Part shown: in pieces, positions 57,476 through 59,451 of the stretch
Position numbering within the stretch: the first letter of the stretch is position 1
Layout of the letters: every line of letters begins with the position of its first letter
Assembly (NCBI GenBank): GCA_003142095.1
Contig: PLON01000072.1
Location: 2,890 to 64,477, forward strand
Direction: 5' to 3'
DNA from: Acidimicrobiaceae bacterium
GTDB taxonomy: Bacteria; Actinomycetota; Acidimicrobiia; Acidimicrobiales; RAAP-2
Length of the DNA: 61,588 nt
The notes under the pieces: generated by a model
What the model was told of the DNA's origin: nothing
Database searches by the model: none
Seen by the model: only the letters and a program-made list of their open reading frames with translations
Translations under genes and position numbers: made by a program

Positions 57476-57533
57476 TCGCTAGCGAAGGCTGCGTTACGGT
57501 GTGCCCGTCATGGCGCCCATCCATCAATGAGTT

Positions 57534-58992
57534 CCCCTTCGGCAAACTCGGGACCTAGTGGGGCGCGGTAATTACGCCCCTAATCCAAGTTTGAGCCAAA
57601 GTTTCTCCTAGTCGTCCACCATGGTGAACGATTCGGTTGACGCTTCGTCAGGGTGCGCCGTTACAACAAGATTCTGTTGCGCGGGACTTACCTCCCCTCC
57701 ACGTCCAGTACCGGAGCTTGTCCCCGGCAGGCCTTGTCGGGCCAGGTTGATGGCCGCGTTGTGATCGCGGCCAAGCGTGAGACCACAAGCCCCGCAGTGA
57801 TACGTCCTTTGGTCAAGAGACAGTGTGGCTTTGACTGTCCCACAGTGACTGCAGGTTTTTGAAGAGGGGTAGAACCGGTCGGCGCGCACGAGCGTCGACC
57901 CGTACCACTTGGTCTTGTACTCGAGTTGACGGGTGAACTCACCCCAGGCGGCATCTTGAATGTGCTTGGCGAGAGAGCGATTCTTCACCATGCCCGTCAC
58001 GTTGAGGTCCTCGATCACGATTACGTCGTAGTTCTTCGCGAGCATCGACGTGGTCTCGTGGATGAGATTACGGCGAGCGTTGCGAATGGAAGCGTGGATG
58101 TTCTGGACTCGGCCGTTAGCTTTCTTCCACCGGTTCGATGGCGCGACACCCTGCTTCGGACCCTGGCGTCGCGAGGCGATGCGTTGCGCGTGGGCCAGCC
58201 TCTTCTCAACGGTCACGTATCGACGGGGGTTGTCCACCTCGAGGACGTGCTCTCCATCGGGAGTAGCGCCGGTGTAGAGCGTCGTGATGCCGACGTCGAT
58301 GCCGATGATCCGCTCGGGGGCTCGAGGTGCGGGGATCGCCTGGGTGATCTCGACGGTGAACGAGATCGTCCACTTCCCGCCACGCTCGGTGAGCGTGGCG
58401 GCCATTATCTTGCCGGTTCCGCGCTCAAGGTGCCGGTAGAGCTTGCGGGTGGACTCGTAGTTCTTGATTTCGCCGATGCGCGCAACGCGTACGTGGTGGG
58501 AATCAGCGAGGCGCACAGCAGACCCCATGAACCGGACCGAGCCGCCCTGGCCCTTGCGCTTGAAGCACGGGAACTTGGCACGGCCCTGGTGGAAGTTGGT
58601 GAAGGCTTTAGAGAGCCGCTGGGCCGCGTCGTTGTAAGTGCTTGAACCGTTCTCCGCCCACCACGGGGCCGCCTCGTCACGGTGCTCAGAGGTAGAGCAG
58701 ACCAAAGTGGCCAGTGTCGATCCAATCCCCCTGCGCGACCTCGATCCCCGCGTCCTTCTTCGCGCGGTTGTCATCCCAGTTGTCCTTCACCAACCCGAGC
58801 AACGTGTTGTACGCGAACCGTGATCCGCCGACGTGACTACGCAGCATCGAGGTTTGCTCGGGCGTGGGATCCAGCGCGTAGGTGTAGGCCCGGGTAAGCG
58901 TGGTGTTGCTAGCCGAGCTCGTCACCTACTCAGTATCGGGACACGCTGTGACATTCACCACGCCCCATCGGGTCCCGAGTTTGCCGAAGCAG
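57534..58992 (-). mobile_element. 1459-bp TIR-bounded element carrying only tnpB
   Basis: Terminal inverted repeats of 35 bp (57534-57568 and 58958-58992) share 29 positions, including the 19-bp block CTTCGGCAAACTCGGGACC and TGGGGCG. The 8-bp direct repeat AATGAGTT flanks the element exactly (57526-57533 and 58993-59000), as a target duplication would. Inside there is only a frameshifted tnpB. A GGGGCG/CGCCCC hairpin (57560-57580) lies between the tnpB stop and the left end. No DDE or Y1 transposase is encoded, so it looks non-autonomous. Confidence 0.8.
57608..58925 (-). pseudogene. tnpB: RNA-guided endonuclease TnpB, frameshifted
   Basis: The N-terminal frame (58925-58686) gives YALDPTPEQTSMLRSHVGGS, RFAYNTLLGLVKDNW and GHFGLLYL, then stops. 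The rest continues in another frame: HRDEAAPWWAENGSSTYNDA, FKRKGQGGS, RuvC motifs GIDVGITTLYTGATPDG, VIEDLNVTGM and GRDHNAAINLARQG, and the zinc finger CSHCGTVKATL...CGACG. Two bases are missing at about 58688, where CTC-TGG-GAG would be expected. RuvC Asp, Glu and Asp are all intact, so decay is recent. By family knowledge its guide RNA would overlap the 3' end. Confidence 0.85.
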
Positions 58993-58998
58993 AATGAG

Positions 58999-59451
58999 TT
59001 AATACTGGATCAACATGGATATGAGCGCCACGCCAACGATGGCGAGGAGTATGTCAATCGAGCGCAGCAGTTCTCGCCCCTGCTCGCGAGTCGCGACCCC
59101 GTCGCGAGCGATCGCCGCAGCAACGCGTCGCTCTTCGGGCAGCGTCCTCGCTTCCAAGTGGCCCGCGGCAGCCAGGTAACACACGAGACCCACGATCACC
59201 CAGGCGTGCGATAACGAAACCGATCGTCCTCCGCTGTACACCATGATGAAACCCGTGATCGGCAGAACATGCAAAAGGCGTGCGGCCCAGTTTCGACGCC
59301 GCGGAAAACGCAGAGCCTGCGTTCCCGCATCCGCTCCGCGCATCACGCCGAGAGCCGCGACGCGCATGGCGATGAAGACGACAATCGTTCCGACGCCCGC
59401 GATGATGTGCACCAAGAAGACCAGGTCGTACGCGACGGAGGTGGCGATCAC
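58999..59451 (-). CDS. Small integral membrane protein (DUF2269-like)
   Basis: The 150-aa protein has four membrane segments: VAYDLVFLVHIIAGVGTIVV, then a basic loop (RFPRRRNWAARLLHVLP), GFIMVYSGG, WVIVGLVCYLAAAGHLEA and a C-terminal LLAIVGVALISMLI. The early His in VHIIAG and the layout resemble the DUF2269 family. The function is unknown. Its stop codon (TAA, 59001-58999) overlaps the right 8-bp duplication of the adjacent element, so insertion happened exactly at the gene end. The GTG start overlaps the meaB stop by 4 bp. Confidence 0.65.
   Translation of the reverse strand: MIATSVAYDLVFLVHIIAGVGTIVVFIAMRVAALGVMRGADAGTQALRFPRRRNWAARLLHVLPITGFIMVYSGGRSVSLSHAWVIVGLVCYLAAAGHLEARTLPEERRVAAAIARDGVATREQGRELLRSIDILLAIVGVALISMLIQY

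Follow-up and report, generated by a model that had tools for sequence, protein, structure and literature searches.

The window analysed in this study is a stretch of 61,588 nucleotides of contig PLON01000072.1 from an Acidimicrobiaceae bacterium (assembly GCA_003142095.1), and its subject is an element in which a gene for the RNA-guided nuclease TnpB is enclosed by terminal inverted repeats (TIRs) and a target-site duplication (TSD). The whole element spanned 57534..58992 (1459 bp) and lay on the minus strand by the orientation of tnpB. The 35-bp TIR of the right end (RE; 57534..57568), which is also the predicted 3′ end of a guide RNA scaffold, and the 35-bp TIR of the left end (LE; 58958..58992) agreed at 29 of their 35 positions (30 when 36 were compared). 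Elsewhere in the window, the closest 36-mer agreed with a TIR at 23 of 36. On the RE side, AATGAGTT at 57526..57533 abutted the TIR with zero gap, and an exact repeat of these 8 bp abutted the TIR on the LE side at 58993..59000. A sequence-only reading of the window had described this gapless arrangement, and its coordinates and counts were reproduced.

The tnpB gene (57608..58925, minus strand) was frameshifted near 58690. Its N-terminal part was a 79-aa open reading frame (ORF) with an HTH_OrfB_IS605 domain (58686-58925; PF12323, 2e-11), and its second part was a 388-aa ORF with OrfB_IS605 (PF01385, 3.6e-21) and Cas12f1-like_TNB (PF07282, 1e-23) domains (57608-58774), both on the minus strand. 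On account of the frameshift, the window copy is probably nonfunctional. The earlier claim that tnpB lies alone in the element held insofar as tnpB was the sole gene-like content with a family match and no DDE transposase was recognised there, but the gene was not intact. An Rfam search of the element returned no match at E ≤ 1.

Recurrence of the element across the genus

Two further copies were found in the same genome. One (L002) was 74% identical to the window element and carried TIRs at both ends and an exact TSD, TGTAGTTC; the other (L003) was 69% identical and had an intact 443-aa TnpB and a degraded RE. An exact 15-mer, CTTCGGCAAACTCGG, occurred five times in this genome, each time at a copy of the tnpB element. 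Matches to the element DNA were present in 54 of 148 genomes, the window's own included, and 50 of these belonged to the genus; some matches were short stretches of tnpB only. The genus sample consisted of 99 Acidimicrobiaceae metagenome-assembled genomes, that is, of uncultured actinobacteria. The TIR pattern (at most 3 mismatches) was found in 56 of the 99, and a reversed control pattern was found in 14 of the 99, one or two times in each; therefore, some of the 56 occurrences are due to chance.

Within the fetched loci, at least 38 tnpB elements of the genus had paired TIRs (TIR profile, shifts of up to 3 bp), and 34 of these 38 had a TSD matching at 7 or 8 of 8 positions (29 at 8/8 and 5 at 7/8). 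The 34 elements were 1457-1493 bp long, and 30 of them were found at zero shift. When TIRs were instead paired at a fixed offset, 37 pairs were listed, of which 26 belonged to tnpB elements whose TSD matched at 7 or 8 of 8 positions and one to an element without tnpB (L077, described below); the remaining 10 include spurious pairings. The 34 elements represented 33 distinct insertion sites, which were used for the site statistics; four elements with a TSD below 7/8 (L119, L074, L083, L065) and L173, the repeat of one site, were left out. The repeats of the window element were therefore not chance sequence, and the recurrence of paired TIRs in the genome and its relatives, for which the sequence-only reading had proposed a search, was borne out. 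Beside the 38 elements with paired TIRs, the fetched loci contained 12 more close tnpB stretches, all distinct, for which no pair was recognised; 6 of them extended to the edge of the locus. No convincing TIR or TSD was found within ca. 1.5 kb of the match at distant TnpBs outside the genus (40-45%, L269-L271), where the locus was long enough.

Apart from L077 and the transposase elements described below, the isolated TIRs without tnpB among those listed were single or degraded ends or lay at contig edges. Single TIRs at L137, L150, L163, L165 and L167 had a subterminal sequence in common (GTGCGGGTTCACGTCGGGCC or a close variant), and parts of this sequence recurred elsewhere without a TIR. 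Where L142 is inserted, the right flank resembles the beginning of a tRNA gene.

An empty site bearing a single target, as the sequence-only reading had predicted, was found for the copy in G005 (L145), although not for the window's own insertion, for which the 99 genus genomes gave no cross-junction match, its own flanks apart. The joined flanks of the G005 copy had an ungapped match in 5 of the 99 genomes (81-94% identity over 139-142 nt), and GAAGATCC stood once in each of the five empty alleles. This search matched 8 of the 99 genomes in all: the 5 that span the junction, G005 itself and 2 with short partial matches. When reading frames were examined at the 33 sites, long frames were expected by chance in GC-rich DNA. 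Recurrent TIRs, a TSD of fixed length and single-copy empty sites, by which a DDE transposon is recognised, were all found.

The tnpB genes of these elements have been kept under purifying selection. Frames were open over at least 420 aa in 24 of the 33 copies, all three search motifs for the RuvC D-E-D residues were matched in 18 of those 24, and most frames matched G[IV]D.G and ED[LI]N. The median dN/dS (nonsynonymous over synonymous substitution rate) was 0.30, with a range of 0.18-0.47 (Nei-Gojobori, 275 of 276 pairs of the 24 open copies). Given the open frames and this ratio, the function of TnpB appears to be maintained in elements without a transposase.

A candidate transposase and other elements with the same repeats

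A DDE transposase within a copy bearing the same TIRs had been anticipated, and a candidate was found in G056, in an element with the TSD CTCTCAAC. Its two ends did not differ over 36 bp, and they matched the window TIRs at 30 of 36 and 32 of 36 positions. The LE opened directly into the gene for a 573-aa DDE-like protein; next came the gene for a DEDDh exonuclease (RNase_T, 4.5e-17), and the two occupied L216:2324-5574 (G056:C181). The element interrupted an AEP-TOTE conflict-system gene (L216:1433-2256 and L217:1423-2124), an assignment resting on a Pfam match of 9e-77 for the part before the element. With the flanks joined at one CTCTCAAC, the AEP-TOTE frame was open for 506 codons, and with two copies it met a stop after 288.

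A homologue with 73% identity in G045 had the same placement at the LE and the same exonuclease neighbour, and G026 held a C-terminal fragment of the transposase together with the exonuclease. An exonuclease match was present in 8 of the 11 transposase-matching loci examined, being absent from L249 (30% identity), L250 and L251; the DDE-like protein and the exonuclease may form a transposition module. L250 and L251, with homologues of 25% identity, were compact elements with 30-bp TIRs (29/30 and 27/30) and exact 8-bp TSDs. Residues D276, D348 and E471 were invariant in five aligned rows, and the strands and helices predicted around them, in a low-confidence model, were ordered as in an RNase H-like fold that has a helical insertion. 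These features suggest that the 573-aa protein is a DDE transposase of an IS256/MULE/hAT-like kind, without assigning it to one family. The 73% homologue matched DUF659 at E 0.0075, below the cut-off, and had two other sub-threshold hits. DUF659 has a link to the hAT transposases, whose TSDs are 8 bp long as well, and the protein may thus be of hAT-like descent. The 25% relatives had weak profile hits to IS1249, IS256 and MULE, of which those to IS1249 (E 0.011 and 0.018) scored 14-15 bits against a curated cut-off of 300.

The driver families named in the sequence-only reading were not confirmed, the comparison covering ISL3 and IS256. ISL3 was rejected as a likely driver: the window's genome has one intact ISL3 and one fragment, and the ends of the intact copy (GGCTCTTCGGATATC) share only CTTCGG with the TIR. 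The resemblance to IS256 was weak and confined to the 25% relatives of the transposase.

The same TIRs also enclosed a different cargo. The element at L077:6930-8198 (G048:C47) had an exact 8-bp TSD, CATTGATC, and an ornithine cyclodeaminase-like gene in place of tnpB; similar genes in the relatives G154 and G083 had no TIR pair. The mobility of a second cargo between the same ends argues for transposition in trans, with the tnpB elements being non-autonomous cargo of a DDE-like transposase. Homologues of the transposase, distant ones counted, were present in 17 of the 99 genomes; since the transposase occurs in few genomes, many tnpB copies may now be stranded.

Two further loci touch on these elements. 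The tnpB element at L055 has a left flank, TTCGGCGTTTGGCGGAGAT, that is similar to what precedes the L243 transposase; it may have landed inside the terminal part of an element distantly related to its own transposase element. At L210 (positions 522 and 1419; G056:C203), two REs, alike over the 60 bp shown and ca. 0.9 kb apart, flank a 242-aa ORF with no Pfam match, a cargo perhaps gained through the use of a second RE.

A one-sided motif and a putative guide RNA

The 33 distinct sites, oriented by tnpB, showed a strong bias toward A/T beside the duplication, against a background A+T of 0.38. Outside the TSD on the LE side, positions −3, −2 and −1 were A/T in 30, 33 and 33 of the 33 sites, and on the RE side, positions +1, +2 and +3 were A/T in 21, 21 and 25. 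The LE triplets were ATT (13), ATA (8), TAT (4), TTT (3), GTA (3), AAT (1) and TTA (1). Both nearest bases were A/T at 33 of 33 LE sites versus 13 of 33 RE sites (Fisher, 2.8e-8), and NT[A/T] was found at 28 LE versus 10 RE sites (Fisher, 1.4e-5). The choice between A and T at LE −1 followed the tnpB phylogeny, with 2 changes on a tree of element interiors (60 bp trimmed off each end) compared to a mean of 9.94 in shuffles, none of 400 of which was as low. Eight other flank and TSD positions showed no tree signal, the lowest being RE +3, for which 45 of 400 shuffles were as low.

In an empty allele, the order is the motif, the 8 bp and the right flank. If the guide starts where the element ends, the arrangement that the available part of PMC10711439 gives for IS200/IS605 TnpB, the motif therefore stands exactly where a target-adjacent motif (TAM) would be expected. 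In the window, the TAM-like motif was TATT on the minus strand (59001..59004), directly 5′ of the duplicated target, and the predicted guide, composed of the duplicated 8 bp and flank, would be 57514..57533 on the minus strand, provided that the scaffold ends at the element boundary. This position was derived from boundaries of the IS200/IS605 type and from the site statistics. The placement of the motif supported target retention, one of the roles that the sequence-only reading had suggested for the nuclease.

The sequence at the RE was consistent with such an RNA. Conservation was high over the 230 nt that end at the right TIR, including the sequence after the tnpB stop. In RNAalifold, a CTTCGG segment shortly 3′ of that stop paired with the outer part of the right TIR (in the window, 57595..57601 on the minus strand, with predicted pairing to 57537-57543). 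Over the aligned copies, 97.8% of the 231 cells of this 7-bp stem were paired, and 16 cells were changed on both sides compared to 2.9 in shuffled alignments (0 of 500 as high), the cells being those of related sequences and not independent events. Versions of the stem slid along the alignment were 31-65% paired with 0-4 doubly changed cells. By eye, the LE of the window copy had no stem partner. The triplet at the element end was C[C/T]C at the RE in 33 of 33 copies and variable at the LE. We infer from the conservation and covariation that the right TIR doubles as the 3′ end of a guide RNA scaffold, as is predicted for Fanzors.

Proposed mechanism and relation to known systems

Recurrent TIRs with 8-bp TSDs, a same-TIR element with a DDE-like protein, another with a different cargo and single-copy empty sites together supported the claim that the window holds a non-autonomous, DDE-mobilised element with TnpB. 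We consider it likely that this transposon, with an RNA-guided nuclease as its only gene, is retained because the nuclease cuts empty alleles. A transposase encoded elsewhere, for which the 573-aa DDE-like protein is the best candidate, would recognise the TIRs and insert the element with an 8-bp duplication. TnpB would bind an RNA running through the right TIR into the flank, with the duplicated 8 bp and adjacent host DNA as the guide. An empty allele, with TAM, 8 bp and flank in order, could then be cut, and the filled allele could not, as its TAM is separated from the target. Cutting of the empty allele followed by recombination with a filled copy would cause the element to be kept or spread, and copies that landed beside a TAM would persist, leaving a one-sided motif.

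Several observations weigh against this reading, and those concerning the transposase come first. The G056 element was split over two contigs, which its common TSD and the gene that it interrupts connect, and neither in G045 nor in G026 did an RE TIR appear downstream of the exonuclease gene. The fold of the 573-aa protein was poorly predicted (mean predicted local distance difference test score of 51), with no structure match at E ≤ 0.001, and a PDB sequence profile search returned nothing relevant. The protein had no convincing family match (in Pfam, DUF659 at E 0.3 only; in NCBIfam, none at E ≤ 1). Close homologues were present in only 3 of the 99 genus genomes, one of them a fragment, and none was in the window's genome. 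This rarity would be expected if the driver were another DDE family, for instance a more distant relative of the 573-aa protein or an unrelated enzyme whose ends are similar, and three homologues of 34-35% identity had the TIR-like TCGGCGTT just upstream. However, the close homologues were alone, among the examined transposase loci, in lying directly inside the TIR, the G056 element had its 8-bp TSD on both sides, and the ends of the intact ISL3 were different; another driver is unlikely.

The motif also admits another cause: the one-sided A/T triplet would reflect which targets are preferred by a transposase that tells its two ends apart, and TnpB would be a passenger that affects neither the choice nor the persistence of sites. 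RE flanks were also A/T-enriched (p 3e-3 to 1.5e-5), and 5 of the 33 LE sites (TAT, AAT) lay outside NT[A/T]. The TSD ends showed a weak G...C symmetry (G first in 17 and C last in 18 of 33), as a symmetric preference would give, and in the G056 element, where no tnpB was seen in the parts at hand, TAT adjoined the TSD on both sides. The transposase itself may thus prefer A/T targets, and the RE-side bias and the G...C symmetry suggest a symmetric preference to which the LE side adds a one-sided component. Nine of the 33 tnpB copies were broken, which also counts against retention by the nuclease. A preference of the transposase would not explain why the motif is near-fixed at one of two ends with near-identical TIRs, why LE −1 and not the RE bases follows the tnpB tree, or why tnpB is under purifying selection; moreover, the LE-like end of the tnpB-less L077 (one case, oriented by its end triplet) lacked the motif. 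We therefore regard a mere passenger role as improbable. Covariation in the RE stem could also be caused by a DNA-binding constraint, and only 3 of the 7 stem pairs were doubly changed, a count reached in 150 of 500 shuffles.

A stronger role for the nuclease, in which TnpB and its RNA help to choose or license insertion sites, is highly doubtful. In that case, the complex would meet a clade-specific NTT or NTA motif and the transposase would insert next to it, a natural partnership of an RNA-guided nuclease and a DDE enzyme unrelated to CRISPR-associated transposons.

Retention after insertion, as proposed here, is a homing hypothesis that can be tested, since the predicted TAMs and guides are already available, as are natural empty sites. 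Because the insertions carry a duplicated target and a motif that varies with the tnpB clade, the genomes may record the target motif of the nuclease. The tnpB elements suggest how RNA-guided nucleases could keep unrelated transposons in place.

Compared to known TnpB elements, those of the IS200/IS605 and IS607 families (also the subject of the available part of PMC9956272), including the TnpB-only IS1341 type, share the TnpB domains, the logic of the LE and RE, a guide expected beyond the RE and a TAM-like motif 5′ of the empty target. They differ in moving by a Y1 or serine TnpA and, as described in the available part of PMC3627910, in having neither TIRs nor TSDs, and the window element, with its 35-bp TIRs and 8-bp TSDs, falls outside both. 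TnpB-only elements ascribed to these families are numerous in that source, yet the notion that the window element is an ordinary one, its repeats and duplications incidental, is scarcely tenable: 33 distinct sites had paired TIRs with a 7-8/8 TSD, empty sites were found, and this TIR also enclosed another cargo. The candidate driver resembles IS256/IS1249/MULE-like DDE enzymes in its D, D and E residues with a helix-rich stretch before the E, in the 8-bp TSD and in the weak hits of its 25% relatives, and it differs in that none of these hits came from the 573-aa protein, and in the DEDDh exonuclease gene that comes next.

No bacterial DDE transposon carrying TnpB was found among the titles and abstract openings listed in the literature searched, a scope short of most subscription papers, bioRxiv preprints outside PMC and ISfinder. 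A precedent for a tnpB element on a DDE transposon is found in the eukaryotic Fanzor transposons. In the available parts of PMC10711439 and PMC3627910, Fanzor1 and Fanzor2* of eukaryotes and their viruses are TnpB homologues carried as cargo, sometimes as the sole gene, of cut-and-paste transposons with TIRs and TSDs (Mariner, hAT, IS4-type, MuDr and unknown DDE). According to the former source, the scaffolds of Fanzor right element RNA (reRNA) are predicted to include TIRs and TSDs, and the likeness extends to a TIR predicted to be part of the guide RNA scaffold. The TSD sets the two apart, being predicted scaffold in Fanzors and, in the present elements, a variable 8 bp that apparently serves as guide, with a clade-dependent TAM-like motif just outside it; the host, too, is here bacterial. 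If our reading is correct, these elements would be a bacterial counterpart of Fanzors, and TnpB would be able to leave Y1 or serine transposons and serve a DDE transposon.
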